Made by a program: the position numbers and the translations under genes. This document shows, in pieces, positions 4,901-21,661 of a stretch of 24,927 nucleotides of DNA. Origin of the DNA: a virus. The notes under the pieces are model-generated. The model did no database searches and was not told the DNA's origin. It saw nothing but the letters and a program-made list of their open reading frames with translations. Position 1 is the first letter of the stretch. Each line of letters begins with the position of its first letter. Location: positions 1 to 24,927 of IMG/VR virus record IMGVR_UViG_3300037108_000025. One strand, 5' to 3'.

Positions 4901-5756
4901 CACGAAATCCCGTAGCTGCCGATCCGGCTTGGCCCGGTGCCACGAATGCCGCCGAGGTGTCGTACTGGACGCCGCACGCCGCAATGGCGAGATTGTTTGC
5001 ATCCACCATACCCATGGTCACGCTCGTGAACGCGTTGTAGAGAGTTCCGGAATTGACAAGCTGAAACATCACATGAAAGGAGCCGGAGGATAGATTGGAG
5101 TGCGGAACGCTGTACGTGAAGATCTGATTTGACCAATCCACCCAGCAAAACCACAAATTATAGGCATCGAAGACAGGCGCATCAATGATCGCGAAGCTCT
5201 TGATCTGCAAGCTGACATTGCCAGAGATGGCTGCCACGGAGATAGGCGCGGTTTGTTGAATGATGGTCTCCCAGTCGCCAGTCGGAGAGAAGGCATCCGC
5301 GGCCGTATCCGGATTGACCTGCGCGATGACGAAGTGTCCCGCGTCTATAAGCCACGCGACATAATTGCCCGACTGCTTGGCCATGGGGGATTCTTGCTGA
5401 CCACTTCCAAGGGCAGGAAAGCGCGTATTGACTTGAGTTACGAATCTTGTCGCGTGACCCTGATACTGATTGGACGTGTTGCTCGTTCCGCGCACATAGG
5501 TCGCGTCGGTGACTGCGTCTCTCGTAATGACTTGCGTTCCATCGGGGGAAAGAATCGAATCCGGGGTGATAGGCCCGCTCTGATAATCATATCCCTGCCC
5601 GATGGCGGTAAAGCCGTCGCGCTTCGAGAACTCTCCGCCCTTCACTTGCTGGCAGTTCTTAGCGACGATCAGATCTCCGAGCTTCACGCTCTTGCGCCCG
5701 GTGTCCTGATCGGTGTCACCGTAGAACAGGGTAATGGGCTGCTTCGCAAGAGCCAT
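1962..5756 (-). CDS. Tail nozzle / stabilization protein (T7 gp12-like or P22 gp10-like), very large
   Basis: 1264 aa. The N-terminus (LFYGDTDQDTGRKSVKLGDLIVAKN, then FSKRDGFTAIG) matches the usual opening of podovirus tail nozzle proteins, where a line on parameters or coordinates leads into a KRxGF motif. Residues about 900-1060 carry RAVYIWKDRAFCADGNRIWVSQ, LAFFKRDAIAVISGPG and CYFQDSQTGRLMLLN, which resemble the beta-propeller blades of T7 gp12. The protein would form the distal tail tube below the adaptor ring. It is much longer than T7 gp12 (about 790 aa) or P22 gp10 (about 470 aa), so the middle (roughly 150-850) probably holds added beta-rich domains. Start and stop overlap both neighbours as TAATG, which indicates translational coupling. 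The family assignment comes from motif memory and gene order, not from a search. Confidence 0.75.
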   Translation of the reverse strand: MALAKQPITLFYGDTDQDTGRKSVKLGDLIVAKNCQQVKGGEFSKRDGFTAIGQGYDYQSGPITPDSILSPDGTQVITRDAVTDATYVRGTSNTSNQYQGHATRFVTQVNTRFPALGSGQQESPMAKQSGNYVAWLIDAGHFVIAQVNPDTAADAFSPTGDWETIIQQTAPISVAAISGNVSLQIKSFAIIDAPVFDAYNLWFCWVDWSNQIFTYSVPHSNLSSGSFHVMFQLVNSGTLYNAFTSVTMGMVDANNLAIAACGVQYDTSAAFVAPGQAGSAATGFRAASGESCGASNYAKSISSHFYLAPSGGPASSPVSYLGTQGKAVAACCTIASVAGGFQTSSGTWYYAFVGASNTGDWAIILQCVDAATLEVTTYVNSFPAVAPDEYGRPTDFDATLFARYGWFYNGALAAKETTTGIEIAVTSIPYYVTTNGTFRTWNPDYLATQCFAYTIAPTLASWSRKWIALGASVAQGWIRLRDYSNTGAHALESGNDYLITQWEDKTALQPSFHVREWDTGAILAQLAYGQAAHIGGTATRDLQVQSYCSDLHQPMVSGVLYTAEGAPLNIYVGLQSANQNACVDIATVQLQIWDQRTNAPPLWQNPVAWQGYSLAPGPIPTICNGFQKVREAGPLVYPSMPEAYITNDVRCFGTFDTAGVYDISMWTKLSGIDVYQRNANGAFFGYRPSDGPMNPTLPMNTMDQFAIPDGYPTDGIYTVVNAGSISTQAVIQRSVNANTSELLFGITFHVVGPGGSNIGTYFQETVGVGTIDVTQPLFSPVTSGYVAPTGDTSVAVVYRLTSSDGTIWRSSPYILPNSLVWESMAISRLRVPTLRHLMEGTAAEIEIYIGQVDLQLVTVIVNDSTVDWIDQILAGPTASYPTISAAVTAAGPGELLYTTGGALENAPPPNARAVYIWKDRAFCADGNRIWVSQEFADGIGIQWNDITSIEWGEGTGDILGICHTDWNYLAFFKRDAIAVISGPGPDGMGSGNYSVQTLSTKAGCSNPKSLINGADGCYFQDSQTGRLMLLNASLQVAEAAPGAFDITAGTDPYTVNPITCALHVEQKRQMWFYVGGDASTIIVLDYKHRGESCPAGSVYTWDVSALGAPCGAAIVHNIPTLIFTDGSVAEQTAAQCYDQTVSSVEHAILQSMQTSDINPLGLQRQFNLSRIQFLGEFQDQSTITLTTYPDFSGFGSTSGPVNLTTGPAQFVTRPPNAMRIQSIRFQVDEGVYASIYGRGFKFIGFALEVQDCGKIASLSVGRVI

Positions 5757-6388
5757 TAGAAGATCACAAAGTTGCTGCCTGATTCATAGAACGACGTTTC
5801 GGGCCCCCAGAATGGGGACAACTGCAAGCCCGTGCGCTGATGGGCACCGTAGCGCATGCGCAAGTCGGCAATTGCCGTTTCCTTGATGTCCGCGTAGCGC
5901 TGCATGTGGAACGAAGGATCTTCGTCATGACGAGCGCGCAGCCACGCGGCAACCGGGAGCGTAAGCAAATCCTCGCATCCTTCGGGCACGTTGAAGGAGT
6001 CGTATCCGTCGACCGGCCTCGCCACGTAGGTCAGCCTGTACTGGCCAGATACGTCGATGGCTATGCCGGTCTTCTGGTTCTTGATCGACCTCATGGCCAT
6101 CGGATACCAGGAGTTCATAGGGAACTGGCGCTCGAATCGGATCACACGTTCGTAGTCGTCCGGCTTCGCGATGGTGGCCCCGCCCTTGGCACCAACCAGG
6201 GGAGGAGGCAGATACTCCACGGCGTAGAATTCGGGCATGAACGTGGAAATCCACCGCCGAACGCGCCGGTATTCCCGGTCAAGCTCGGCGGTGATTTGAA
6301 CGTCCGTCACCTGTTGATCATTGTCGTGCGCCGTGGCCGACCGCACGGCGGCCACGGCATCTTCGATTGACATTTCGGCGACGGGCAC
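5756..6388 (-). CDS. Head-tail adaptor (P22 gp4 / T7 gp11-like)
   Basis: 210 aa. The helical N-terminus (residues 22-50, DNDQQVTDVQITAELDREYRR then VRRWIS) and the later VPEGCEDLLTLPVAAWLRARHDED are typical of podovirus adaptor proteins that form a ring under the portal. I chose the GTG start at 6388 because AAGG lies seven bases upstream; the internal ATG at 6373 has no such site. It is followed without a gap by the nozzle gene (TAATG), the usual order of adaptor then nozzle. Confidence 0.75.
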   Translation of the reverse strand: MPVAEMSIEDAVAAVRSATAHDNDQQVTDVQITAELDREYRRVRRWISTFMPEFYAVEYLPPPLVGAKGGATIAKPDDYERVIRFERQFPMNSWYPMAMRSIKNQKTGIAIDVSGQYRLTYVARPVDGYDSFNVPEGCEDLLTLPVAAWLRARHDEDPSFHMQRYADIKETAIADLRMRYGAHQRTGLQLSPFWGPETSFYESGSNFVIF

Positions 6389-6397
6389 GGCTGCGCC

Positions 6398-7042
6398 TTA
6401 CGCCGTCTTGTATCCGTGAACGATGACGGTGCATCCGGCGTCGGCCGCAGAAGACTTCGTGCGAATCACACGCAGGACCGCGGCAGAGCTGACGATGGCG
6501 TTGGCGGATAGAATCGTCGCGGACGAGACGACGGTGTTTGCCGCGACATTCACGCTGACCGCCTCGGTGATCGGAGTTACTACCGTGCCGTTTGCGATCT
6601 GGATGGTGTCCGAGGCTCCTCCGGCGTTTGCGTTCTTGAGAATGCGAATGCTTGTTACGGTGAATTTTCCCACCGTGGCGTCAACGGTCGTGTCGATATT
6701 TCCCGTGGCCCCGTCGGGCACCGAGATGATGTACTCAACGGGGACCGCCGGGATGGTATTCCCGGCAGCAGCGACGGCGATCTTGCCGCCCGTGAGCGTG
6801 TTGTTGGCGACTAGGCTGTTGACGATGGCCAGCGCCGCGAAAGCGTCGAGCGCCTTGGCGGCGTTGAAATAGCCGGTCGCCATGACGGCGCGCCCAGGAG
6901 CGTCCGCAGAAAGGGCCCCTCCTGCGAGCGATCCCGCGTTCGCTGCCGTGGTGACGGCATCCACCCATGCCTTGATGGCCGTCGCGTTGTAGACGTCTGC
7001 CGGGTATTCGAGTTGGTCTCGCGTGACTGCTGTGACGGTCAT
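6398..7042 (-). CDS. Putative capsid-associated virion protein
   Basis: 214 aa, rich in Ala, Val, Thr and Asn with almost no Cys or Trp, as in structural proteins. The first 100 residues look partly helical. The rest is beta-rich: TSIRILKNANAGGASDTIQIANG, then EAVSVNVAANTVVSSATI, then VLRVIRTKSSAADAGCTVIVHGY. I recall this C-terminal pattern from short proteins encoded just after major capsid genes in podoviruses, where a head-decoration or minor capsid role is usually suspected. A purine-rich AAGGAAGGGAA precedes the ATG. The product is not firmly identified. Confidence 0.6.
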   Translation of the reverse strand: MTVTAVTRDQLEYPADVYNATAIKAWVDAVTTAANAGSLAGGALSADAPGRAVMATGYFNAAKALDAFAALAIVNSLVANNTLTGGKIAVAAAGNTIPAVPVEYIISVPDGATGNIDTTVDATVGKFTVTSIRILKNANAGGASDTIQIANGTVVTPITEAVSVNVAANTVVSSATILSANAIVSSAAVLRVIRTKSSAADAGCTVIVHGYKTA

Positions 7043-7045
7043 TGG

Positions 7046-7387
7046 TTAGTTCCCTTCCTTGTCGTATTCGCCGCCCTTGTCTTCCTCTTCGCCTTCCTCG
7101 TTCTCACTGTGGGGCATGTCCTCGAACGCCTGAAACACGCTGTGCAGGCATTCCTGCAAGCGCTTCGCGTCCACCCTCCCAGCGCTGATCATCTTCGCGA
7201 GGATTTCACAACCCTCTTTTGCGCGCGTCTCCGCGTCGGTCTCGTCGCCGCCATCTTCTTCCCCATCGAGCGGGGCATCTGGTTTGAACGCCGACCGCGT
7301 TTTCTTCGGACTCACGCCGATGGCGATTGCAAGGTGCGGCTTGTCGCCTTCCTCATCGTCCAGCGGCCTGTCGGGTTGAAATGCCAT
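7046..7387 (-). CDS. Small acidic protein downstream of the major capsid gene
   Basis: 113 aa, unrecognised. The N-terminal half repeats a short theme (FQPDRPLDDEEG at 3-14, FKPDAPLDGEEDG at about 34-46). The C-terminus is strongly acidic (NEEGEEEDKGGEYDKEG). A helical middle (TRAKEGCEILAKMISAGRVDAKRLQECLHSVFQAFEDM) could be a dimerisation segment. The ATG has an AAAGG ribosome site five bases upstream, and that site lies in one arm of a hairpin (see 7393-7407). Acidic proteins of this size are common next to capsid genes, but no function can be given. Confidence 0.65.
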   Translation of the reverse strand: MAFQPDRPLDDEEGDKPHLAIAIGVSPKKTRSAFKPDAPLDGEEDGGDETDAETRAKEGCEILAKMISAGRVDAKRLQECLHSVFQAFEDMPHSENEEGEEEDKGGEYDKEGN

Positions 7388-7392
7388 GCTTG

Positions 7393-7407
7393 CCTTTCGT
7401 CGAAAGG
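7393..7407 (-). promoter_or_regulatory. Hairpin over the ribosome site of the acidic-protein gene
   Basis: CCTTTCG and CGAAAGG form a perfect 15-base interrupted palindrome. The 3' arm in the mRNA is the AAAGG Shine-Dalgarno of the gene starting at 7387. The arm also touches the preceding GC stem (7406-7427) at 7406-7407, so the two hairpins compete at their edges. Confidence 0.4.
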
Positions 7408-7427
7408 GGCCGAGCTATCCCGGCCCC
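7406..7427 (-). terminator. Hairpin after the major capsid gene (weak terminator)
   Basis: GGGGCCG (7406-7412) pairs with CGGCCCC (7421-7427) around an 8-base loop, and the minus-strand transcript then reads TTTCG. A strong GC stem with only three U residues suggests a leaky terminator, or an mRNA 3'-end stabiliser, between the abundant capsid transcript and the genes downstream. Confidence 0.45.
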
Positions 7428-7440
7428 GTCCGACTGTTGA

Positions 7441-8787
7441 CTAGGTGGTGGGCAGGTTCGAGATGGCGAGGAACTTGCCGGGGCCCGGGACGACCATGGC
7501 GCCACGGAAGAACAGCCTCTGCTGGAATGCCGTCGACGTGGGCATGCGCAGGTATTCGTTGCCGTCGGCGTTGTCGGTGTTGACCAACTCGCCGTTGTGC
7601 TTGAGCATGGGGCCGAACTCCGCCGAGTTGAACGGGCCGCCCCAGCAGATGCCTTGGCTGATGTACTTGGACGGGGTGACGCGAACCTTGCCCTTGCCTC
7701 CGAGCACTTCGACGCCATCGAATCCCACGCTGTACGGGCCGATGTTGAGGCTCACCAGCTTGACCCGTTCCTTGTCGCGGATCAAGGTGGCGTAGTCATA
7801 GACAGACACCATCCAGGTGTCGATCTCGGTGTCGTACTGCTCGGCCAGCATGTTGCCCTCGATGAGGGCGTCGGCGATGGAGAGCGACCCGGCGGAGGCG
7901 TCCATGGTGATCCCGGAGAGCTGCCAGATGTTTCGGCGGTCGAGACCCATGAAGGACGTCTCACCTGAGGACACGCCGGACGGATCCACCCAGCCCCGCA
8001 TACCGATGGGGCACTGTGCGGTGGGGCTCGCGGTGTTCTGTCGGAAGCCCTGAATGAAGACCGTGTCGGCGTTGCGGACCGCGTCCGTGTCGTAAGGACT
8101 GGTGGCACTGTCGGCGGAGCGAGTTTCGAGCACGACCTTGCCCGTCTGCGGAACGGTGCCGGACACGGTCCAGGCGTTGCCCCACCCGGACTGATCGCCA
8201 GTTCCGTCGGCTCCGCGCAGAGTCCCAGTGGCCTCGGTGGCACCGAACACGACCCGCATGCCGATGCGGAAGCGGCTCACCTCGGACAGCGGCACCGTGA
8301 AGTAGTTTTGCCCGGAGGCGATTACGGAGATCGTTGAAATTCGTCCCCAACCACGCTCGGCCGCCATGATGGACAGCAGGTGGCGAACATAGGCGATCTT
8401 CGCCTTGCGCTCGCGGGTGACGATGTCGACAACTTCGCCAGGACCGTCGCCGACTGCGGCCATCATCGAATCGCGATCCCACATCGCAATGGCTTCGATC
8501 TTGGCTGCGTTGGTCGACCAGCGGCCTCGGAGAGCGGCGGCCCCGAGGTCGGTAGACGTGGCGATATCGTTCGCCAGGGTGTACTGCGCGTTCGCGCTGA
8601 CACCCGTGTCGTATTCAACGCGGGTGATGAAGGCTCGGCCCAAACCATCGTTGCTCGATTGAGCCTCGAAAGCGGCCAGAAGAGGGTCGATTGCCTGGGT
8701 CCAGATGTCGACGATGTCGCGATTCTGGTGCTCCATGACCTGGGAGAAAACTCCCCCGAGGTCTCCAACTGTGAAAGTAGCGCCCAT
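7441..8787 (-). CDS. Major capsid protein
   Basis: 448 aa. It follows the scaffold gene and precedes the head-completion genes, the standard place of the coat protein. The sequence fits an HK97-fold coat: an N-terminal helix (FSQVMEHQNRDIVDIWTQAIDP), a long-helix region (RKAKIAYVRHLLSIMAAERGWGRI, about 128-151), a beta-rich middle, and a C-terminal stretch of DYATLIRDKERVKLV, then GVEVLGGKGKVRVTPSKYISQG, then RLFFRGAMVVPGP. The start is ATG with AGGTGA upstream. That ribosome site can pair with a copy of its complement 69 bases earlier in the leader. The call rests on gene order and composition; a structure prediction would confirm it. Confidence 0.8.
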   Translation of the reverse strand: MGATFTVGDLGGVFSQVMEHQNRDIVDIWTQAIDPLLAAFEAQSSNDGLGRAFITRVEYDTGVSANAQYTLANDIATSTDLGAAALRGRWSTNAAKIEAIAMWDRDSMMAAVGDGPGEVVDIVTRERKAKIAYVRHLLSIMAAERGWGRISTISVIASGQNYFTVPLSEVSRFRIGMRVVFGATEATGTLRGADGTGDQSGWGNAWTVSGTVPQTGKVVLETRSADSATSPYDTDAVRNADTVFIQGFRQNTASPTAQCPIGMRGWVDPSGVSSGETSFMGLDRRNIWQLSGITMDASAGSLSIADALIEGNMLAEQYDTEIDTWMVSVYDYATLIRDKERVKLVSLNIGPYSVGFDGVEVLGGKGKVRVTPSKYISQGICWGGPFNSAEFGPMLKHNGELVNTDNADGNEYLRMPTSTAFQQRLFFRGAMVVPGPGKFLAISNLPTT

Positions 8788-8790
8788 GAT

Positions 8791-8877
8791 GTCACCTGAT
8801 GCAAGGGCAGCGCTCGCGCGCTGGCCCGGTGGTTTGTCCGAGCATCACTTGTGCTGCGGACCTCTTATTCAGGTGAC
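8791..8877 (-). promoter_or_regulatory. Long-range stem that could hide the capsid gene ribosome site
   Basis: In the minus-strand mRNA, GTCACCTGA (8877-8869) is perfectly complementary to TCAGGTGAC (8799-8791). The second copy contains the AGGTGA Shine-Dalgarno four bases before the ATG of the major capsid gene. The 69-base loop holds its own hairpin, CAGCGC/GCGCTG with loop GCGA in the mRNA (8808-8823), and a shorter one at 8908-8923 lies upstream. Pairing would block initiation until it was opened. Confidence 0.4.
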
Positions 8878-8931
8878 CCCAAAATCGCAGGATCTATGGA
8901 TTTCGCGCCGACATGGGCGTCGGTTGCCTTT

Positions 8932-8960
8932 AGTAGTTCACAGAATCGTTAGGACGTCAA
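8932..8960 (-). promoter_or_regulatory. Weak promoter candidate before the major capsid gene
   Basis: Minus strand: TTGACG (8960-8955), a 17-base spacer, then ACTACT (8937-8932). The -35 is good and the -10 is poor (three of six). It lies directly after the scaffold stop, in the only sizeable non-coding gap (174 bp) of the structural run, where an extra promoter for capsid protein would make sense. Confidence 0.3.
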
Positions 8961-8961
8961 C

Positions 8962-10119
8962 CTATTTCGCGGACCTGGCTTGAAATTGAGCTTCTACCGT
9001 TGCCCGGAGTCGCTTCTCCTTGTCGCGCAGGCTTTCGCGCTTGGCAGGTTCGATCTTGATGGCGTCACCGGCATCGGAGGTCACGGAGGGCGTGATGGTG
9101 CGAACCGCTGCCGCGGGTGGTGTTGGCTTCTTGTCGTCCTTGGGGTTGATCAGCTCTTCGAGCTTTTCAATGCGCTCCTTCTGGGCCTTGAGGGTTGCGC
9201 GGATGGAGCCTTCCGCCTTGTCGAGTAGCTCCTTGGCCGTGAGAATCTGGCCGGGCTTGTCCCTCAAGTGCTGCTGGTAGAAAGCGTCGAGCTGGCCTTG
9301 CGTAACCTTGTCCGACTTCAGGGCGGGATAGTCGCCGGCTTTGTATTCGATACGGACAGCACCATAGAACTCTTCCTTGGCCACAAGATTGTCGGCCTCC
9401 TGACGCTGCCTCGCGATTTCCTCGGCGGCCTTGCGTTCGTCCTCGGCGGCCTTCAAGCGTTCGGCGATCTTCTTTTCGACGTCGGCTTCCGTGAGGGTTG
9501 GCGGGGCGGTTCGCTTCGACATCTCATCGAGCAGGTCGACCACGAAGCCGGATTTTTCTAGTTCATCTGGCGTGTAGCCGGCTGCCTCAAGGATGGCGAG
9601 CTTGCTTCCCTTGGTCCGCGCCGCCTCCAACTTTCTCGCCAGCTCGATCTCTTTCGCGTGCGCTGTCTCGGCGGCCTTTGACTTGGCATCGGCGGCTAGC
9701 TCACGCTCCCGGAGTTTTCGGCGCTGAGCAGCCTCCGAACTCGCGGCGGAAAGTCGTGCTAGCCGCGCGGCGATCTCGTCTTGCTCTGATGTTTTCTTCT
9801 CGGTCTCGACGGGCTTGGCAAGTTCGACAGGCTTCGGCTCGACCTTTGCCAGTGCATCCCCAAGTGCGGTGGACGGTGCAGGGAGCGGAGCCGGTGCAGT
9901 GGGCGGAGTGGGTTTGGGAGATTGCACGGTTGTCGCGGGAGTCGCGCGGTTGACCTTGTGCTTTTCATTGTAGCGCTGCTCGACGAATGCCTTGAGATCG
10001 ATCTTTCCTGGCGCTTCTGGATGCGCCGGCAGGGCCGTGCCTGGGACGGTAGCGGCCTCAGTTGTCGGGGCGGAAACGACGGGAGTGGGAACGGCTGCGG
10101 CGGTTACTTGGTCTGACAT
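8962..10119 (-). CDS. Scaffolding protein
   Basis: 385 aa. The N-terminal 100 residues are Pro/Ala/Thr-rich and probably disordered. Residues about 105-190 and 215-320 are highly charged, Ala-rich predicted helix or coiled coil (KTSEQDEIAARLARLSAASSEAAQRRKLRERELAAD and similar). The C-terminus is a short basic helix (RESLRDKEKRLRATVEAQFQARSAK), the kind of tail with which scaffolds bind coat protein. It sits between portal and coat genes, which is diagnostic for scaffolds. It would guide procapsid assembly and then leave. A GAGGAA ribosome site precedes the ATG, and the gene overlaps the 56-aa gene upstream by 16 bp. Confidence 0.8.
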   Translation of the reverse strand: MSDQVTAAAVPTPVVSAPTTEAATVPGTALPAHPEAPGKIDLKAFVEQRYNEKHKVNRATPATTVQSPKPTPPTAPAPLPAPSTALGDALAKVEPKPVELAKPVETEKKTSEQDEIAARLARLSAASSEAAQRRKLRERELAADAKSKAAETAHAKEIELARKLEAARTKGSKLAILEAAGYTPDELEKSGFVVDLLDEMSKRTAPPTLTEADVEKKIAERLKAAEDERKAAEEIARQRQEADNLVAKEEFYGAVRIEYKAGDYPALKSDKVTQGQLDAFYQQHLRDKPGQILTAKELLDKAEGSIRATLKAQKERIEKLEELINPKDDKKPTPPAAAVRTITPSVTSDAGDAIKIEPAKRESLRDKEKRLRATVEAQFQARSAK

Positions 10120-10274
10120 GTTTCCTCACGTGTGCGGGTTTGCTTTCGCGATTCTTTGAGCATGCGCAGCGACGCCGCGCGGATGGTTTTGCTATTGGGA
10201 TAGCTGACGACTTCTCCTCGAAGTGCCGCGCGGATTACCCGCTCGCACACCTTCTTGGAGATTCTTCGCTTCAC
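10104..10274 (-). CDS. Small basic protein between portal and scaffold
   Basis: 56 aa, starting MKRRISKKVCERVIRAALRG from a GTG that overlaps the portal TGA as GTGA. It ends inside the first codons of the scaffold gene. It is Arg/Lys-rich and helical with no recognised domain. Tiny genes in this slot are common in podoviruses, and one or more overlaps on each side argue for translation. The longer reading frame that runs upstream through the portal gene is only its shadow. Function unknown. Confidence 0.6.
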   Translation of the reverse strand: MKRRISKKVCERVIRAALRGEVVSYPNSKTIRAASLRMLKESRKQTRTREETCQTK

Positions 10275-12130
10275 GATGGCGGGCCCTGCATGCCGGGGGC
10301 TTGAATGGAGCCTGGGTTGAGACCTGGCGCGCTTTGCACGGGCTGGATGGGCGGCAACGGCGGGGCCTCTTTCCTCTGCGCCGCCTTCATGAGCTTGCGC
10401 AAGCATTCGAGTTGCTCCGGTGTGTGGTTCTTGTTGACGAGCGCCCGGCAGTACATCTGCGCGCCGATCTGCTTGATGTAGTTCAGGCAGTCCGGACCCA
10501 TCAATCCCGTCGGCGGGGTATAGTCTCCATTGAGTGCGTCTTCCACCATGCGCGTGGCAAGGTCGAGCGGTGCCGTCAGTCGGTCGAACAGTGCCGCGCA
10601 ATCGGGGAGGTCGTCGGCGAGGCCTTTGGCCAACGTCATCGCATCGGCCAAGCCGATCCCTTGGAGGTCGACGAGCTGCTGGATCTTCGCGGAGACTGTT
10701 CCAGTCAGTCCGCTGGTGATCGTGAATTCGATCTTGTATTTGTTCTTCCGCATATCGACATCAGACCACTTGATTTCCTCCAAGAAGTCCTTGCCGGGCG
10801 CTCGCATCAGGACGGAATTCCCAGCGAACGCGTCCGCGCTGATTCCCACCATGGCTCGGGCCACGTCGACCCACGCGGACTTCCAGCGTTCGGATGGGTC
10901 TTGCAGTCGGTCGTCGGCGAATCCGGCATAGTCGCGGATGGCTTGGCCGCTCGTGATTCCCTGGGGCATCTGAGCTGCGGACATGGAGCGAGATACGCCC
11001 ATCTCATTGAACGCGCCGTCTTCGATTTCGTGGAACATGTCGAAAACCTGCGACGGAACAGGATTTGGAACCTCCAGCGTAGGAGGCTGCGTTCCCGACC
11101 ACTTGACATCCTGCCAAGGAATGTCTCCGTTGTCCTCGCATATGGTGTCCACACGCATGAGTCTGCGGGGCAGAGCCCCAAGTAATGAGTCGTGCATAGT
11201 GCGCAGGAGTTGATTCCTCCAGCGGTGATAGGGCGCCAGAATTCGCCCTGCCGCCACACCACCCGCCCCGGTGAACTCGGGGAAGAATCGAATCAGCACC
11301 ACTTGATGAAATGGGTGTGTGTACTTCTCGTTTTCCAGCACGACCTTGTCCGCGGCCATCGTGTAATGACCCGGAATGCTTTCACCTTGTTGGATCTTCC
11401 AACCCTCATCGACGCGCACGGTGTCGCAGGTGTTGTTGGTCGTCGGCTCGATTCCCGCGATGGCCGGACGCCGCCACTTTGGCAGCCTGCCGATTGCGTC
11501 CGCCTTTTTGGGGTAAAGGTCTTGGATCTTCTCGCGCGGGACCGCCGAGCGCACGAACATGTGAACGGGGCGCTCTCCTTCCTCGAATGGGAAGAACACT
11601 CCAAGCGGGTCCAAGCGGTCAAACCTAATCGAATCGTTCAGCGTATCGAACGCCACCTTCCCCGCCCCGAACCCGCGCATGGAACATGCGTCCACGGCCA
11701 TTCGTTGAAGCACATCGCGCGTGTTCAGCTCTTTGTTCAGGCTGTCCACGTACCGAGTAAGTTTCGTGGCCTGGTTCTGTAGCTTGTTGTCTCCGCCGAC
11801 AGTGATGATCTTCGCGGCGAGTTGTCGACATACCCGTGCTGTCATGGCGTCGATCACTTCGCGGGTGACGTTGAACCCGAACTCAGATAGCACCCTGTTC
11901 GTGGTTCTCTGGAGCGCGCGGGTGTCGGTGTAGTTTGTATCCGGTACAATCTCGGCGGCGAGAGGCCGATTCCAATACTGCCGCCCCAGACAGCGAGCAA
12001 GCACCAGCTCGGTCGCGTGCGTCTGCTGGACCTGGTCGACCACCTGATGGAGTCGCTCCGGTTCTTTCGTCCACGAAATAGAGCCCGTGAAGTCGTTCTT
12101 TTCTCCTCGTTGCCTGCTGAGCTTGCCCAT
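10271..12130 (-). CDS. Portal protein
   Basis: 619 aa. The order TerL, small gene, portal, small gene, scaffold, coat, together with size and character, identifies it. It opens with long helices (LHQVVDQVQQTHATELVLARCLGRQYWN) and has the wing and stem-like helical middle (VTREVIDAMTARVCRQLAAKI). It contains aromatic beta segments such as RFDRLDPLGVFFPFEEGERPVHMFVRSAVPREKIQDLYP, usual in podovirus portals. The C-terminus is helical, then Pro/Gly-rich (PPIQPVQSAPGLNPGSIQAPG). It forms the dodecameric ring at the capsid vertex through which DNA enters and leaves. The length lies between T7 gp8 (536 aa) and P22 gp1 (725 aa). Confidence 0.85.
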   Translation of the reverse strand: MGKLSRQRGEKNDFTGSISWTKEPERLHQVVDQVQQTHATELVLARCLGRQYWNRPLAAEIVPDTNYTDTRALQRTTNRVLSEFGFNVTREVIDAMTARVCRQLAAKIITVGGDNKLQNQATKLTRYVDSLNKELNTRDVLQRMAVDACSMRGFGAGKVAFDTLNDSIRFDRLDPLGVFFPFEEGERPVHMFVRSAVPREKIQDLYPKKADAIGRLPKWRRPAIAGIEPTTNNTCDTVRVDEGWKIQQGESIPGHYTMAADKVVLENEKYTHPFHQVVLIRFFPEFTGAGGVAAGRILAPYHRWRNQLLRTMHDSLLGALPRRLMRVDTICEDNGDIPWQDVKWSGTQPPTLEVPNPVPSQVFDMFHEIEDGAFNEMGVSRSMSAAQMPQGITSGQAIRDYAGFADDRLQDPSERWKSAWVDVARAMVGISADAFAGNSVLMRAPGKDFLEEIKWSDVDMRKNKYKIEFTITSGLTGTVSAKIQQLVDLQGIGLADAMTLAKGLADDLPDCAALFDRLTAPLDLATRMVEDALNGDYTPPTGLMGPDCLNYIKQIGAQMYCRALVNKNHTPEQLECLRKLMKAAQRKEAPPLPPIQPVQSAPGLNPGSIQAPGMQGPPS

Positions 12131-12133
12131 CGC

Positions 12134-12346
12134 TTATACCTTTCCTAGGTCCACGTCGACGCGGTCACCTGTCTGGTTGTCCTTGGTCTTAACCGCGTCG
12201 CGCTTCGTGAGATGCATCTCAAGCATGCCGTCTTTGTAGTAGGTCGCTCCGTGCTGCGTGAGCAAGGCTATGCGCGCCTTCAGGTCCGCAAGGGGAGTGA
12301 TCCGCCCCGTTTCACTTTCTCTCTCTATCTTAGTTCGATTTGCCAT
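12134..12346 (-). CDS. Small hypothetical protein between terminase and portal
   Basis: 70 aa, charged, with no recognised domain: ADLKARIALLTQHGATYYKDGMLEMHLTKRDAV suggests one helix followed by two strands. Its ATG lies inside the last codons of TerL (22-bp overlap) and its TAA is three bases before the portal ATG. The tight packing supports a real gene co-translated with TerL and portal. Confidence 0.6.
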   Translation of the reverse strand: MANRTKIERESETGRITPLADLKARIALLTQHGATYYKDGMLEMHLTKRDAVKTKDNQTGDRVDVDLGKV

Positions 12347-13809
12347 GGTCGTCTCGCGTCCTTCTCTTGTTGGAGGAAGCGCGCAATACGTAGGCGCTCC
12401 AGTTCTGCGTCGATGCTCTTCGGTTTCGGTTTCTCTTTAGAAAGCCAGTTGTAAGCACCGTGAAAAGCGTATCGAGTAGCCGGCATGACGTCCGAGTGGT
12501 ATGTCTCGGGATTGGTGCAAATCTTCGCATCCCTGGCGATGAGTCCAAGCGGATTTACCCTAAGCCTTCCGCTGCGGAATTCATCGTTAAGCATGCGTTC
12601 GCTCACCTCTACGCTTGTGGGCTTTGGGGTGAAATCCAGACCCATGAGTCGCGGCTTGAGCCATTCGAGCATCTTGACCGCGCCTGCTCCGCCTGTGTCC
12701 GCACAAATGGCCTGCATGGGTTGCCAGCGTTTGAACGTCTCCAGCACACGCCGACAAAATGCTTCCGAGTCTTGGCGATCTTCCCAGCTCTCGCGCTCCC
12801 AGATGGCGTGAGTTCCATCGTCAATGCGCCATCCGAGCACCACGCAAGCGTCCTTGTCGTTCCCTTCGCGTGCTCCGCCGATGTCGATTCCCATGGCAAA
12901 GCGCCACGTGGTAAGCGGAATCCCCCGCGCGTCGGTGAGGAATGGAACGCCTGTCACCGGCCAATCGTTGCGCCCCTTGGCGTATGCGTATAGGAGCTTG
13001 CTCGGGTCGGTGACTTGGCGGCCGAAGATTTCCCTTTGAATCAGATAATCATTGCGTTCCGGCTTCGCGAAGTCGATCTCGTATCCGCGAATTTTCATTG
13101 TGTTGACGATCTCGTCTCGGTCGATGAACGGATTGTCCAGCAACGTCCACGCAGGCAAACCGGGAGCGGCCCCGAGTCGATCCCATTGGTCGCCCATGAC
13201 AGCCTCGTACCAGAGGCCCGCCTCTACGTCAGCTGGAGTTCCTTCCAGGGTGAGCGAGCCTCCACGGTCGATCAGTGTCGGGAGAATCGTCTTGTCAACG
13301 AGTCGGCGAAGCATCTCGTCGTCGAATTCTTGGCACTCGATCAGCACGATGTCGTTCCACAGGAATCCTAGCTTCTTGCCCACCTCGTTTTTGTCGTCGC
13401 AGCCAACGACTTGGACGAAACTGCCGTTTCCGAAGGTGATGTTTAGTTCTGTTGAGTCGTGGTGCGCCTCTGGGATGTGGTGCGACTCCATGATCTCCCG
13501 GATGCCGGGATTCCTCGGATCGCCAGTTTCGTAGACCTGTTGTTTTCCTAGAATGCGGGTGTGGTGGATGATGAGCGTGCGCCATCCGGGCCGCTCCGAA
13601 CTGCGCTTGACGGTGCGGAGCCTGACCCCGTATGTCTTGGCGGCACGGCGACTGCACATGAGGCAGATGGCGCGCGATTCGGCTTGGATGAATTGCCACT
13701 GCGCCGGAAACGAGTCGGCTTCGGTAATCGGTATCCACGTGGCGCCTGTCTGCCTCGCTGCGACCGCTGCGAGCTGCTCAAGGGCGAAGCTGGAGGCGCG
13801 ATTGCTCAT
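12325..13809 (-). CDS. terL: Terminase large subunit (packaging ATPase-nuclease)
   Basis: 494 aa. The N-terminal ATPase has a P-loop-like CSRRAAKTYG (52-61), a Walker B-like IVLIECQEF (154-162), and the coupling motif GTPADVEAGLWYEA (190-203). The C-terminal RNase H-fold nuclease shows three acidic sites: MGIDIGG (D309), ICADTGG (D371) and HSDVMPATRYA (D440). It docks on the portal, pumps DNA into procapsids and cuts the concatemer. The start is ATG in an ATGA overlap with the 80-aa gene. Odd points: the P-loop has Ala where Gly usually precedes Lys-Thr, and the usual Asp before the catalytic Glu in Walker B is Ile157. The length is normal. Confidence 0.92.
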   Translation of the reverse strand: MSNRASSFALEQLAAVAARQTGATWIPITEADSFPAQWQFIQAESRAICLMCSRRAAKTYGVRLRTVKRSSERPGWRTLIIHHTRILGKQQVYETGDPRNPGIREIMESHHIPEAHHDSTELNITFGNGSFVQVVGCDDKNEVGKKLGFLWNDIVLIECQEFDDEMLRRLVDKTILPTLIDRGGSLTLEGTPADVEAGLWYEAVMGDQWDRLGAAPGLPAWTLLDNPFIDRDEIVNTMKIRGYEIDFAKPERNDYLIQREIFGRQVTDPSKLLYAYAKGRNDWPVTGVPFLTDARGIPLTTWRFAMGIDIGGAREGNDKDACVVLGWRIDDGTHAIWERESWEDRQDSEAFCRRVLETFKRWQPMQAICADTGGAGAVKMLEWLKPRLMGLDFTPKPTSVEVSERMLNDEFRSGRLRVNPLGLIARDAKICTNPETYHSDVMPATRYAFHGAYNWLSKEKPKPKSIDAELERLRIARFLQQEKDARRPWQIELR

Positions 13810-14048
13810 GACGGCGCGCCTTCTCTGTCCTTGCTGCCAAGTGCTACGCGCGGATTAAACAACGCCGTTTCGAGCACTTTCCGCACCCGCACAAACCACA
13901 AGCCAGGCGATTCGCCGGGAAGCAATGGCACGCGCCCACTGCCAAGCATAATCGAAAGTCGTTCGCGCTCCCCGTGGCTCAAGGGGGAGCCATTGGACCA
14001 CTGGCAACCCCTCCAGGTTTTGACCGGGATGCGAAGGCGCGGCTTCAC
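13806..14048 (-). CDS. Small hypothetical protein before TerL
   Basis: 80 aa from a GTG start that overlaps the preceding TGA (GTGA) and ends in an ATGA overlap with terL. It is basic: [34 protein letters not shown], then LPGESPGLWFVRVRKVLETALFNP. No domain is recognised. Coupling on both sides supports expression with TerL and a packaging-related role is possible, but nothing in the sequence shows it. Confidence 0.6.
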   Translation of the reverse strand: MKPRLRIPVKTWRGCQWSNGSPLSHGERERLSIMLGSGRVPLLPGESPGLWFVRVRKVLETALFNPRVALGSKDREGAPS

Positions 14049-14206
14049 TGTGGATCCTCTTTACACCGCTTGCACCACGTCGCTTCTGCCGGCTCTCGCT
14101 TCATGCTCCCACCACATCCGCGGCACTTGCGCCCAAACGCGGCCTCGTGGCCTGCCTTGTACAACTTCGTGACGGGCTTCGAGCGTATCGTGTTGCTCGT
14201 ACTCAT
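14045..14206 (-). CDS. Small zinc-ribbon protein
   Basis: 53 aa, starting [10 protein letters not shown]. It has two CxxC knuckles, C28-R-G-C31 and C45-K-R-C48, thirteen residues apart, which is the pattern of a zinc ribbon. The N-terminus is basic. The ATG overlaps the preceding gene as ATGA and the TGA overlaps the next as GTGA. It may bind DNA or a partner in the packaging complex; small zinc proteins beside terminase genes are known, but the role here is inference. Confidence 0.65.
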
Positions 14207-14334
14207 TTGCTCTTGGCCTTCCGCTGAATGTCGTATGCAATGGCAACGGCCTGCTTGACGGGGCGCCCCGCTTTGACTTCGGTGGCGATGTTCTTGAGCC
14301 TCGCCAGCTTCTTGCTCGACTGGATGAGCGGCAT
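14203..14334 (-). CDS. DUF6496-like small phage protein
   Basis: 43 aa: [16 protein letters not shown], then [27 protein letters not shown]. The pattern of an N-terminal MPL, an E(M/V)KAG(K/R)PxKQAVAIA core and a basic tail is one I recognise from many phage genomes, annotated as DUF6496 or hypothetical. Molecular role unknown. It begins with a TGATG overlap after the 116-aa gene and ends in ATGA with the zinc ribbon, so it is clearly part of this operon even though it is very short. Confidence 0.7.
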
Positions 14335-14684
14335 CACTTCATCTTCTGCTGCCCCTGCTGCTGTGGCGGGTTATCGTCGTCACCCAGGATCATGGCATTT
14401 CCGATGCCAATCGCGCACCAATCTGCCGACGGGTCTTTCCCTCCAGCGCTGCGGTTCCACGACCGACTGGCATCTGTCGGGTTATCCTTGTGTCGCCCTT
14501 TGCGGATGATGATCGCCCCGCTTCGCGGTTCGTATTCGAGCGAGTGCACCACGGCCTGACCATCGACTGGATCTTTCACCACATCGCCGGGAGACAGGCT
14601 CCCGATACGCCCCATACCGGGAAGAACTCGCGGCTGCATGGCCGCCCCGTCAAACTGCATGAATCGAACGAGCTTGATCTTCAT
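14334..14684 (-). CDS. Hypothetical protein, 116 aa
   Basis: Starts [20 protein letters not shown] at 14684. This start has a strong AAGGAG ribosome site eight bases upstream and is preferred over in-frame upstream codons that lie inside the GNAT gene. The N-terminal half looks like a small beta barrel ([36 protein letters not shown]) and the C-terminus is Gln/Asp-rich. No family recognised. Its start overlaps the end of the acetyltransferase gene by 35 bp. Confidence 0.6.
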
Positions 14685-15144
14685 TCTTGGATCTCCTTGG
14701 GGATTTTCGTTGTATGCGTTTGCATGTTTCCCATGCCCACAACAGAGGGTAGGAACACTCGGAGCGAATCCGCTCCGCATGCGAGGTCCAATAGACAAGA
14801 GGCATCGGGACAGATTCTACGAGGGCTGTCGTCAGTTGGCTCCCGATGCCCCAGCGCCGAAATGCCGAGCGTACATAGGTGAAGACGATTTCGCCGTCGC
14901 GTGCTATGGCCCATCCAACGATCCGATCCGCGTCTGTCCCCAGCGTGGCCGACATGCAACTGGCGATACCACTGCGAAGGCATCGAGCAAGCTCCTCTAC
15001 ATGCGGGCGAACGTCCGCGTGATTGAGAGACTCTAGCGCGATCCGGTCCTCCAGGATGTGCCGGCGGAACGAGTCGAGAACGAACGCATGATCGGCCGCC
15101 ACCATCGGGCGCAGGGCGATGGCGTCCCGAATGTTGGCGTTCAT
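14650..15144 (-). CDS. GNAT-family acetyltransferase
   Basis: 164 aa. It opens with the typical IALRPMVAADHAFVLDSFRRH strand-helix pair, then DRIVGWAIARDGEIVFTYVRSAFRRWGIGSQL, where R96-R-W-G-I-G101 is the acetyl-CoA pyrophosphate-binding motif. The ATG at 15144 overlaps the TerS stop as ATGA; an ATG 12 bases earlier is possible. Such GNATs occur in a number of phage packaging modules. Their acceptor is mostly unknown and could be host or virion protein, or a small molecule. The C-terminus is basic ([15 protein letters not shown]). Confidence 0.7.
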   Translation of the reverse strand: MNANIRDAIALRPMVAADHAFVLDSFRRHILEDRIALESLNHADVRPHVEELARCLRSGIASCMSATLGTDADRIVGWAIARDGEIVFTYVRSAFRRWGIGSQLTTALVESVPMPLVYWTSHAERIRSECSYPLLWAWETCKRIQRKSPRRSKNEDQARSIHAV

Positions 15145-15722
15145 GGTTGCGGCCATTCCTGGTCCGGGGCTGTCTCCGGTTCTGGTGTTTCGTCTGCTGG
15201 CTCAGCCGTTGCCTCGATGGCCAGCGCAGACTCCTCGCGCGCTTCGATCTCATCTTTGGCAATCTTGAGATACGACTCCGAGTCTCCGGTGCAGTCGCGA
15301 AAAAACGCGGCCAGTTCTTTGGGAGTCATCGAGTACACCCTTGAGCCGAGCACCTTCAGCGCAAGCTCGGCGGCGTCGTGGGCGACTTTGCGCATGTGCT
15401 CGGCTAGCGCCAACGACCGCACGTCCTCGGATTCGGGTGGTTTCCCCTCCGCATAGGCATAGATCAGCTTGGCCGCCTCCACACTGTCGCGGGCCGAAGC
15501 CACGCGCAAAAGTTCCCCTTCAGAGTCTTTCCCGATCACCCGGACTTCCCATCTCGTGGCCACCTCGATCAGGTGCTCCAAGATTCTTGCGCGCTCATCC
15601 TTGCCGTCTTTCCCGATCTGATCTAGGCGATTTTTCATCCATGCGAGAGAGCGCTTGCCCGACGGATTCCCCGAAACGCCGGGCTTAAATCGCGTCGCTA
15701 TGCTCGGATTTGGATTTCCCAT
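15141..15722 (-). CDS. Terminase small subunit-like protein (DUF5681-type N-terminus)
   Basis: 193 aa. Residues 11-24, RFKPGVSGNPSGKR, match the signature N-terminus of DUF5681 proteins, which in phages lie just before the large terminase and are commonly taken as small subunits. A helical middle (about 25-150) is followed by an acidic Pro/Glu tail (EATAEPADETPEPETAPDQE). It is the first gene of the structural run. I chose ATG 15722 over a TTG at 15782 because the family motif follows directly and the predicted transcript begins downstream of 15782. TerS would recognise the packaging site; that role is inferred from position. Confidence 0.6.
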   Translation of the reverse strand: MGNPNPSIATRFKPGVSGNPSGKRSLAWMKNRLDQIGKDGKDERARILEHLIEVATRWEVRVIGKDSEGELLRVASARDSVEAAKLIYAYAEGKPPESEDVRSLALAEHMRKVAHDAAELALKVLGSRVYSMTPKELAAFFRDCTGDSESYLKIAKDEIEAREESALAIEATAEPADETPEPETAPDQEWPQP

Positions 15723-15750
15723 TTCCTGCTGATTCCTGCTGATTCCTGCT
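15721..15750 (-). repeat. Three tandem 10-bp repeats in the TerS leader
   Basis: On the plus strand ATTTCCTGCT, GATTCCTGCT and GATTCCTGCT follow one another exactly. In the minus transcript each copy gives AGCAGGA, so the leader has three ribosome-site-like AGGA motifs, the last ending two bases before the ATG. They may be a protein-binding (possibly TerS/pac) site or a translation tuning element. Confidence 0.7.
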
Positions 15751-15760
15751 CTCCCCTGCA

Positions 15761-15789
15761 ATAGGATACCAACCCGCTCCAAAAGTCAA
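15761..15789 (-). promoter_or_regulatory. Promoter for the structural gene run
   Basis: Minus strand: TTGACT (15789-15784) is a near-consensus -35. The -10 may be TATCCT (15768-15763, 15-base spacer) or TCCTAT (15766-15761, 17-base spacer). It lies 40-60 bases before the TerS ATG with no gene between, and it is the natural start for transcription of the left arm. Confidence 0.45.
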
Positions 15790-16175
15790 GCCCCGCGCGC
15801 TCTGCCTGCACGTTTCGTGTCAATTGCTCAATACGTGGGCGCGCGACGCGCGCATCCAAAAGGCGAAGGCCACCCGTCCCTCCGGATTCCCGGAATCACC
15901 AAAGCGAATATGACGTCCTTGAGCGTGGTGGGGTCTGGCGTCTGCGTTTGTTACCCGAGGTCCAGTGGCCGATCCTATGTCAGGTGCTGACCTGCCCTAT
16001 GGGCTTGCGTCTTCTCGCGTGCCCATGCTCCTCCCAGCGCGCTCCTTGGAGTGATTTGGGCGTACCATCGGCACGGTCTTTTCCCGTGGTTGGTGCCCGT
16101 GAGTTCATGGCCGATGATGGTACGCGATCTCTCCTCCGTGTTCAACATTCAGCATCGAAGTCGGGCAGGCTCGTC
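15790..16175. other. Divergent control region, non-coding, with several palindromes
   Basis: No credible gene lies on either strand. Palindromes seen: GCGCGCG-A-CGCGCGC (15839-15853); GATTCC-C-GGAATC (15885-15897); CAGGT-GCTG-ACCTG (15981-15994); and a perfect 10-bp inverted pair GCGTACCATC (16060-16069) / GATGGTACGC (16116-16125), with a CACGG/CCGTG hairpin (16072-16088) between its arms. The region separates oppositely transcribed arms, so operators, a replication origin or a packaging site could all be here. Confidence 0.6.
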
Positions 16176-16204
16176 TTGTCGATCAAATGCTTTTGATGTA
16201 CACT
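16176..16204 (+). promoter_or_regulatory. Rightward promoter with palindromic operator in its spacer
   Basis: TTGTCG (16176-16181), a 17-base spacer and TACACT (16199-16204) give a plausible sigma70-type promoter. The spacer is almost filled by the palindrome ATCAAA-TGCT-TTTGAT (16182-16197). A protein bound there would exclude RNA polymerase. The start codon of the next gene is only nine bases after the -10 and there is no ribosome site, so the transcript may be leaderless. Confidence 0.5.
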
Positions 16205-16212
16205 CCTCGATC

Positions 16213-16416
16213 ATGAGCAATCCAACCAAGGGCAAAAGGCGCGCACCGGGGGCCGGGCGCAAGGCTAAACCTGAAGGGCAGAAGGCCAGCCGGCACATCG
16301 GGGCAGGAGTATCCGACAAGGAATGGCCGCTAGTAGAGATGGTAACCGAGCAGCGTGGGGGCAACCGCTCGGCCATCATCAGAGCGGCTTTCGGACTCCC
16401 CCCTGCGATTTCCTAG
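16213..16416 (+). CDS. Small ribbon-helix-helix-like DNA-binding protein
   Basis: 67 aa. A basic N-terminus (KGKRRAPGAGRKAKPEGQKA) is followed by a short strand (SRHIGAGVS), a helix (DKEWPLVEMVTEQ), a Gly turn and a second helix (RSAIIRAAFGL). This is the strand-helix-helix order of Arc/CopG-type dimeric repressors, including the typical Ser-x-x-Ile-Arg-x-A of the last helix. As first gene of the rightward arm, with a palindrome in its own promoter, it is a good candidate for an autorepressor or early regulator. The ATG at 16213 has no Shine-Dalgarno. An upstream extension in the same frame has no family support. Confidence 0.6.
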   Translation: MSNPTKGKRRAPGAGRKAKPEGQKASRHIGAGVSDKEWPLVEMVTEQRGGNRSAIIRAAFGLPPAIS

Positions 16417-16452
16417 CCGCGCGCCGCGTCGGTCGATTTGTGATAAAAACAT

Positions 16453-16481
16453 TTGCAACGTAATTGGATACGATCTACTCT
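16453..16481 (+). promoter_or_regulatory. Second rightward promoter of the same design
   Basis: TTGCAA (16453-16458), 17 bases, then TACTCT (16476-16481), with the ATG six bases later. The stretch from the -10 to the start (TACTCTCC, then GATCATG) repeats that of the first rightward promoter (TACACTCCTC, then GATCATG). Both lack a ribosome-binding site. Confidence 0.4.
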
Positions 16482-16487
16482 CCGATC

Positions 16488-16721
16488 ATGGAAACGCAGA
16501 CGACACCAACCACCACCAACGAAGCCAGGCGCGCTCGCGAAATCTACGCAGACGCCACGGCCTACCCTCGCTCGAAGCTCCCCGGCTATGGAAAGATCGT
16601 CCTAGCCTGGGTTGACGGCCGCTACGTGGCCACCTACGAGGGCGCGCCATATTGGAGCACGGTCGAGATACACGACGGGTTCGCGGTCATGCAGATGGCA
16701 TCCCTGGAGGTGCGCTCGTGA
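16488..16721 (+). CDS. Small hypothetical protein
   Basis: 77 aa. The N-terminus is Thr-rich (METQTTPTTTNEARRAREIYADATAYPRSK). It is followed by a compact beta-rich part, YGKIVLAWVDGRYVATYEGAPYWSTVEIHDGFAVMQM, that looks like a small folded domain. No family recognised. I prefer ATG 16488 over a TTG at 16464, because the latter lies within the predicted promoter. The stop overlaps the next gene as GTGA. Confidence 0.55.
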   Translation: METQTTPTTTNEARRAREIYADATAYPRSKLPGYGKIVLAWVDGRYVATYEGAPYWSTVEIHDGFAVMQMASLEVRS

Positions 16722-20611: not shown

Positions 20612-21661
20612 ATGCGACCACATCCACTGTCAGAGATATTCCCTCCAATGGAGGGAGATGAATTCGACGCGCTAGTCGAAGATATTCGGCGAAACGGGCT
20701 GCGCCAGCCGCTGGTCATGTACCAGGGAAAAATCCTGGACGGGCGCAACCGCTGGCGCGCATGCGAGAAGGCTGGCGTCAAGGCGACCACCACGGACTAC
20801 CGTGGTAACGATCCGCTCGGCTACGTGCTTTCGTTGAACCTGAATCGACGGCATCTAACTCCGACCCAGCGAGCGATAGTAGCCGAGAACATCGTCACGA
20901 CCACACACGGAGGCTTTCGCCATGGTGAGGACAGCAGGACCAAGGGATCACGTGATCCCTTGATAGCCGAGGTCAGCCGCGAGAAAGCCGCGAGAATCAT
21001 GGATACAAGCCCAGGAACCATGAAGCGCGTGCGAAAGGTTCTAGATCACGGGACGGAACCACTCAAGGCGGCGATCAAGGCTGACAAGCTCGACGCAGGG
21101 ACCGCCGCAAAACTTGTCGACGCCTCAGCCAAGACGCAGAAGGCAGCGGCCGAAGGCGGTAAGGAAATCGCGCGCGAGATCGTCAAGAAGATCGAAGCGC
21201 GCGAGGAAGCCAAGGAAGAAGCGAGATCGGGAGATCCACCTGTCAAGACGCTTGGCCTTCCGATCCCACCGGAAATCCTCGTGCGCATCGAGAAGGAGCA
21301 AGGTCTTCTCGACAAGATGTCCCGGATGCTCTCGGAACTGAAGCGCACGTATACCGAGTACGAGCAATGCACCGGCGTTGCCGGAAAACTCGGGCCTGGG
21401 AAACACCATGCGAGCGCCTTACGTTCGGCACTTGATGCCCTGAATACCCTGCGCGACCAGCGGCCCGCCTGCGTCTGCCCACATTGCAAACTGCTTCCCG
21501 ATTTGATCAAGACCTGCAACGTCTGCCGGCGCAGCGGTTACATTGGGGCGAGCGCGCTCAAGCAGATCGAAGCATGTCTACTTGTCGAAGGAGACGAAGC
21601 CGGGGTGTGGGTCGATGGAAAGTGGAGGTCATTGGCCGAATTGCGCGGAGACGACTTCTGA
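20612..21661 (+). CDS. ParB-like DNA-binding protein with C-terminal zinc finger
   Basis: 349 aa. The ParB N-terminal domain is clear: LVEDIRRNGLRQPLVMY (21-37), ILDGRNRWRACEKAG (41-55, equivalent to the GERRxRA nucleotide-binding box) and LNLNRRHLTPTQRA (75-88). A helix-turn-helix-like part follows (AEVSREKAARIMDTSPGTMKRVRKVL, 119-144). The middle (160-245) is charged helix. The C-terminus has C287, C289, C292 and C302-NV-C305, a zinc site not found in classical ParB. No ParA is visible here, so transcriptional or replication control is as likely as partition. A 22-bp palindrome lies within the coding sequence. It ends in a TGATG overlap with the helicase gene. Confidence 0.75.
   Translation: MRPHPLSEIFPPMEGDEFDALVEDIRRNGLRQPLVMYQGKILDGRNRWRACEKAGVKATTTDYRGNDPLGYVLSLNLNRRHLTPTQRAIVAENIVTTTHGGFRHGEDSRTKGSRDPLIAEVSREKAARIMDTSPGTMKRVRKVLDHGTEPLKAAIKADKLDAGTAAKLVDASAKTQKAAAEGGKEIAREIVKKIEAREEAKEEARSGDPPVKTLGLPIPPEILVRIEKEQGLLDKMSRMLSELKRTYTEYEQCTGVAGKLGPGKHHASALRSALDALNTLRDQRPACVCPHCKLLPDLIKTCNVCRRSGYIGASALKQIEACLLVEGDEAGVWVDGKWRSLAELRGDDF
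20941..20962. repeat. 22-bp perfect palindrome inside the parB-like gene
   Basis: The half-site CAAGGGATCAC is followed immediately by its exact reverse complement. The centre TCACGTGA equals the central eight bases of the chromosomal parS site recognised by ParB. It encodes residues 110-117 of the ParB-like protein, in a variable linker between the ParB box and the helix-turn-helix. Confidence 0.8.

Follow-up and report, generated by a model that had tools for sequence, protein, structure and literature searches.

The locus at which the two gene arms of virus record IMGVR_UViG_3300037108_000025 meet raises the question of whether a small protein encoded there represses its own gene. A palindrome lies directly upstream of an ORF of 67 amino acids, inside a candidate promoter, and such an arrangement is expected of an autoregulator. 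The window, that is, the whole 24.9-kb stretch of DNA analyzed, corresponds to the virus record and is probably a fragment.

Arm junction and coding signal of the 67-aa ORF

To the left of 15.8 kb, the minus strand carries packaging and structural genes. This left arm includes a terminase (12325–13809) and a portal gene (10271–12130), both with weak matches in Pfam and PHROGs, and its first gene, which probably begins at ATG 15722, is DUF5681-like. A GNAT acetyltransferase-like ORF with weak Pfam matches (14650–15156, minus strand) separates the first late gene from the terminase gene. Recombination and replication genes occupy the plus strand from 16.2 kb. The order in this right arm is the 67-aa ORF, a 77-aa ORF, an exonuclease-like gene (17638), and a gene of an unnamed PHROG family (18762). 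The arm also contains a helicase gene, a primase-like gene, and a ParB-like gene, whose ParB-N-like product (20612–21661) gives PHROG matches down to 6e-24. Because the opposite arms meet near 16.2 kb, the 67-aa ORF and the palindrome are placed at the junction of divergent arms, as proposed in an earlier reading of the sequence alone (hereafter, the sequence-only reading).

The 67-aa ORF, on the plus strand, begins with ATG 16213, closes with a stop codon whose last base is 16416, and encodes MSNPTKGKRRAPGAGRKAKPEGQKASRHIGAGVSDKEWPLVEMVTEQRGGNRSAIIRAAFGLPPAIS. Its coding signal is marginal: the value of 0.075 bits/codon should be compared with 0.23–0.36 in real genes of the window and with a median of −0.10 in spurious ORFs, 14% of which reach 0.075. 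The frame scores best among the six frames. The in-frame signal falls to −0.218 upstream of 16213, suggesting that ATG 16213 is the natural start. A longer version of 121 aa started by GTG (16051–16416) was rejected, since the codon signal vanishes upstream of 16213. The second gene of the right arm, the 77-aa ORF (16488–16721, plus strand), has no assigned function and a single, remote relative that matches in part (40% over 37 aa), and it is convincing as a gene with a codon signal of 0.324. The 67-aa ORF is very probably a real gene as well.

Predicted promoters and palindrome upstream of the ORF

Three predicted promoters are clustered around the junction. PR1 (TTGTCG-17-TACACT, 16176–16204, plus strand) is rightward and is separated by 8 bp from the ATG of the 67-aa ORF, as in promoters of the leaderless type. 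PR2 (TTGCAA-17-TACTCT, 16453–16481, plus strand) is also rightward, with 6 bp between its end and the ATG of the 77-aa ORF. PL (TTGAAC-17-TACCAT, 16117–16145, minus strand) is leftward and ends 8 bp before ATG 16108. PL and PR1 face away from each other, with 30 bp between their −35 boxes. The −10 boxes of all three begin with TAC, and PR1 and PR2 have similar ACTC..CGATCATG joins.

Judged by the sigma-70 consensus, PR1 appears weak. Its hexamers agree at 8 of 12 positions, equally good sites number 73 on the plus strand against 59.5 in shuffled sequences, and PR1 is not among the promoters listed by a standard promoter scan of the window. The pattern TTG-N20-TANNNT-N5..9-[A/G]TG, on the other hand, occurs four times on both strands of the window against 0.48 expected, three of them inside 16108–16490; the pattern was framed after PR1 and PR2 had been seen, which makes the enrichment post hoc in part, while PL is an independent find. 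Leaderless genes in bacteria are marked by a TANNNT box that begins some 12 bp ahead of the start codon (PMC3160421). The boxes of PR1, PR2, and PL begin 14, 12, and 14 bp ahead of their start codons, respectively, matching this spacing. PR1, PR2, and PL are predicted from sequence to be promoters of the leaderless type, provided that the host makes use of leaderless mRNA. The 42-aa ORF behind PL (15980–16108, minus strand) carries no coding signal and is probably non-coding, and PL may be the start of a leader for the late arm.

The candidate operator is the perfect 6-4-6 palindrome ATCAAA-TGCT-TTTGAT (ATCAAATGCTTTTGAT, 16182–16197). It is flanked by TTGTCG (16176–16181) and, after G 16198, by TACACT (16199–16204), so that it fills 16 of the 17 spacer bases, in exact agreement with the sequence-only reading, and ends 15 bp before the ORF. 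Since the predicted PR1 transcript begins downstream of the palindrome, the latter would act as DNA and not as an RNA hairpin. The bare palindrome is not beyond chance: the window has 86 perfect repeats with 6-bp arms and loops of 0–8, dinucleotide shuffles have 76, and the 60 bp that precede the ATG would contain one with a chance of 9.4%.

The symmetry extends beyond this core, which had gone unremarked in the sequence-only reading. The extended imperfect palindrome TGTcgATCAAAtgctTTTGATgtACA (16177–16202) is 26 bp long, agrees at 9 of 11 positions per arm, and reaches into both promoter hexamers. It overlaps the −35 box, the spacer, and the −10 box of PR1, and thus forms an operator-like symmetric site on the gene's own promoter. 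The local chance of this form in the same 60 bp is 0.7%, and repeats of the extended type number 13 in the whole window against 9.5 expected. The arm centers are 10 bp apart, one helical turn, a spacing that suits two ribbon-helix-helix (RHH) dimers or one helix-turn-helix dimer equally.

The window holds no second full copy of the palindrome. An 11-mer taken from it, CAAATGYTTTT, is present twice in the window against 0.03 expected, the single recurrence being inverted at 16445–16455; the pattern was picked after the match had been seen, and a fair comparison of the PR1 and PR2 promoter regions gives P = 0.023. This recurrence, CAAATGTTTTT on the minus strand, matches CAAATGCTTTT of the palindrome in inverted orientation and lies over the −35 box of PR2 as a possible second, single-arm site. 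The 18-base extended pattern was found at one place only in viral contigs, within a coding region of an unrelated contig. The arms of an FNR box are ordered TTGAT..ATCAA. A reading of the palindrome as an FNR-type box was rejected, because its arms (ATCAAA..TTTGAT) are in the reverse order.

RHH-like sequence of the 67-aa protein

Searches of Pfam, PHROGs, NCBIfam, PDB, phage and plasmid records, and both viral and genome contigs returned no homologue of the 67-aa protein, and no sequence relation to any PDB chain was detected. Weak matches among about 400 whole genomes fall in unrelated or broken frames and were dismissed as chance. Pfam and PHROGs at E ≤ 1 gave no match to an RHH model, NCBIfam gave nothing relevant, and a search of this record alone with Pfam RHH_1 (PF01402) stayed empty at a cutoff as loose as E = 1. 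Tracing the junction through distant relatives of the gene at 18762 in the right arm revealed no RHH-like ORF.

Two direct profile tests point to an RHH-like sequence. With an HMM built from 25 RHH_1 sequences, the 67-aa ORF scores 10.9 bits, a value reached by 1 of 3000 shuffles, and the other small frames of the window score at most 5.6 bits, except for the longer version of the same ORF. The match spans helix B alone (EQRGGNRSAIIRAA). An ungapped 35-column matrix that takes in the strand and both helices, A and B, has its maximum at residue 29 (IGAGVSDKEWPLVEMVTEQRGGNRSAIIRAAFGLP); 6 of 5000 shuffles score as high, and the 67-aa ORF ranks first of 203 small ORFs. The peak is in the register expected for RHH, and the sequence pattern of strand, helix A, and helix B is thus present. 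Both tests are consistent with the Arc/CopG-like order of strand, helix, and helix put forward in the sequence-only reading. The protein would consist of a basic tail (residues 1–28, with nine K/R against one D/E), a strand (about 29–33), helix A (about 35–47), and helix B (about 51–60).

The RHH fold itself is predicted from this pattern. A single-sequence AlphaFold2 model (pLDDT 62, pTM 0.23), in which the helix at 51–59 alone is formed, is unusable. In the RHH (MetJ/Arc/CopG) superfamily, an intertwined dimer inserts a two-stranded sheet into the major groove, so the residues of the putative strand should be noted. In the fitted register, H28, G30, and G32 would face the major groove. Two glycines at groove-facing positions imply few base contacts, an unusual feature which argues for weak or tail-assisted recognition. 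A NikA-like or MobC identity, considered from the wording PEGxK..RHIG, was rejected: a NikA-like HMM gave 0.0 bits, and 184 of 3000 shuffles were as good.

The likeness to known RHH proteins is partial. As with Arc and Mnt of phage P22, a small phage-encoded protein with an RHH-like order is predicted to bind as dimers to an operator inside a promoter. Unlike Arc and Mnt, the 67-aa protein matches no RHH model in Pfam at E ≤ 1 and has H/G/G at its DNA-facing positions, and no paired second regulator or integrase was identified in the window. SvtR, a 6.6-kDa RHH protein from SIRV1, a rod-shaped virus of archaea, represses its own promoter and binds an imperfect inverted repeat there, though its strongest target is a late structural gene (PMC5569661). 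The present locus shares with SvtR a tiny viral RHH-like protein and an inverted repeat of imperfect symmetry in the promoter of the protein's own gene, to which binding is predicted; it differs in that the full site is found at its own promoter alone and in that SvtR belongs to an archaeal virus and acts on an archaeal promoter. Compared with autoregulators of the CopG/RelB type (RHH_1, PF01402), the strand-helix-helix register fits without gaps, and two adjacent half-sites lie on one helix face as in RelB (PMC2812701). However, the 67-aa protein is below any Pfam threshold, and neither a toxin partner nor a plasmid copy-control context was recognized.

Proposed autorepression and alternative explanations

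The positions, the palindrome, the promoter-like architecture, and the RHH-like pattern are read directly from the sequence. Autorepression of the early rightward arm by the RHH-like 67-aa protein is the best reading of them, and we regard it as about evenly balanced between right and wrong. The 67-aa ORF would be a small RHH repressor and the first gene of the rightward early recombination and replication arm, with an mRNA that starts at or beside the ATG and is leaderless. Two RHH dimers would occupy the two arms of the palindrome, whose centers, 10 bp apart, fall on the same side of the helix; a pair of RelB dimers sits in this way on a single face of the RelB operator (PMC2812701). The protein bound to 16177–16202, from the −35 box into the −10 box, would exclude RNA polymerase; promoter occlusion of this kind has been described for viral RHH proteins (PMC5569661). 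A rising level of the 67-aa protein would then turn down its own gene and probably also the operon behind it, and the weaker single arm at PR2 could serve as a secondary site. Dimerization, binding, repression, the leaderless start, and the early timing are all predicted steps. The self-repressing geometry suggested in the sequence-only reading holds in so far as an operator-like palindrome is placed where it could block the gene's own promoter.

Autorepression is favored by an RHH pattern that ranks first among the small ORFs, the basic tail, a palindrome that covers the whole promoter, three clustered promoters of the leaderless type, and the precedents of SvtR and RelB. It is weakened by the lack of any homologue of the protein, so that neither the protein nor the site can be shown to be conserved, and further by the unusable structure model, the marginal coding signal, the chance-level palindrome core, the H/G/G strand, and the absence of a match to Pfam RHH_1.

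Three rival explanations were considered. The 67-aa protein may be a genuine RHH-like DNA binder that acts elsewhere, for instance on the host, on promoters outside the fragment, or in an accessory role in recombination or replication, while the palindrome is bound by another regulator of the phage or host. H, G, and G at the DNA-facing strand positions are poor for specific site reading, and the basic tail could bind DNA non-specifically. A 6-4-6 interrupted palindrome is at least equally typical of helix-turn-helix dimers, which also favors another regulator, and other regulators may lie outside the window, which is a fragment. We nevertheless consider this explanation rather unlikely, since the palindrome is located exactly in the promoter of the 67-aa gene and small viral RHH proteins often regulate themselves (PMC5569661). 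It is likewise unlikely that the palindrome arose by coincidence in an A/T-richer spacer, with a real promoter, perhaps a real gene, and no operator. The number of perfect 6-bp-arm repeats does not exceed chance expectation (86 against 76) and the local chance of the core is 9.4%; moreover, the window contains no second full copy, and the only occurrence of the 18-base pattern in viral contigs is a coding-region site in an unrelated contig. The 26-bp form, with its local chance of 0.7% and its center on the promoter spacer, argues against such a coincidence.

The protein may also not exist. The 67-aa ORF would then be a non-gene open frame, and the transcript from PR1 would serve the 77-aa ORF and later genes. 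The codon signal of 0.075 against 0.23–0.36, equaled by 14% of spurious ORFs, and the lack of a homologue in the databases and contigs searched are compatible with this view. On the other side, the frame is the best of six, the signal drops to −0.218 upstream of the ATG, the RHH-like sequence pattern is present, and the start-proximal −10 box is common to the 67-aa ORF and the 77-aa gene. A non-coding frame is accordingly quite improbable.

The wider roles assigned to the locus in the sequence-only reading fare less well than autorepression. A part in the choice between lysis and lysogeny finds no support: there is one full site, the first gene of the late arm is about 460 bp from the palindrome, and no integrase, CI-like repressor, or second repressor was recognized among the subset of proteins scanned in the incomplete 24.9-kb fragment. 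A part in the early-to-late change survives only as a speculative, indirect possibility through the divergent leftward promoter PL, whose predicted start lies about 80 bp from the center of the palindrome, which is upstream of it. A single 26-bp site and an RHH protein that together shut PR1 and help PL, giving an early-to-late turnover between the arms with leaderless transcripts, is very improbable.

Small autoregulated viral RHH repressors are well known, and the 67-aa protein would be an unrecognized new member. If autorepression is true, the locus offers a compact, testable case of a phage early arm under one tiny repressor, in an uncultivated phage without a close named relative. In that case, promoter context may also help to recognize RHH repressors that have diverged beyond the reach of Pfam and PHROGs. 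Existing knowledge of phage switches is unchanged by the finding. The divergent promoters of the leaderless type at the junction provide a practical handle for transcription mapping in this phage.

The region to the left of the promoters shows further features. A perfect 10-bp inverted repeat, GCGTACCATC/GATGGTACGC (16060–16125), has 46 bp between its arms, and its right arm includes the −10 box of PL. The surrounding region (15990–16140) has no match in Rfam and folds as RNA better than shuffled sequences (z −2.5).

A near-identical contig, IMGVR_UViG_3300037099_000127, is 99.2% identical to positions 1–15852 of the window, where the similarity stops abruptly, leaving a final 586 bp unrelated to the window. 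The break, at position 587 on the side of the relative, is close to the arm junction. Neither the TTG-N20-TANNNT promoter pattern nor a palindrome with 7-bp arms was found in these 586 bp. The break reflects either an exchange of early modules between phages at the arm junction or a chimeric contig. The late arm can be joined to other DNA, and the 67-aa gene is thus not necessarily needed for it. Just upstream of the first late gene, a 10-bp repeat, TTCCTGCTGA, spans 15723–15759 of the window, and the relative has one unit fewer. With one unit lost, the TTG start listed at 15782 would fall out of frame, suggesting that ATG 15722 is the likely true start of this gene.
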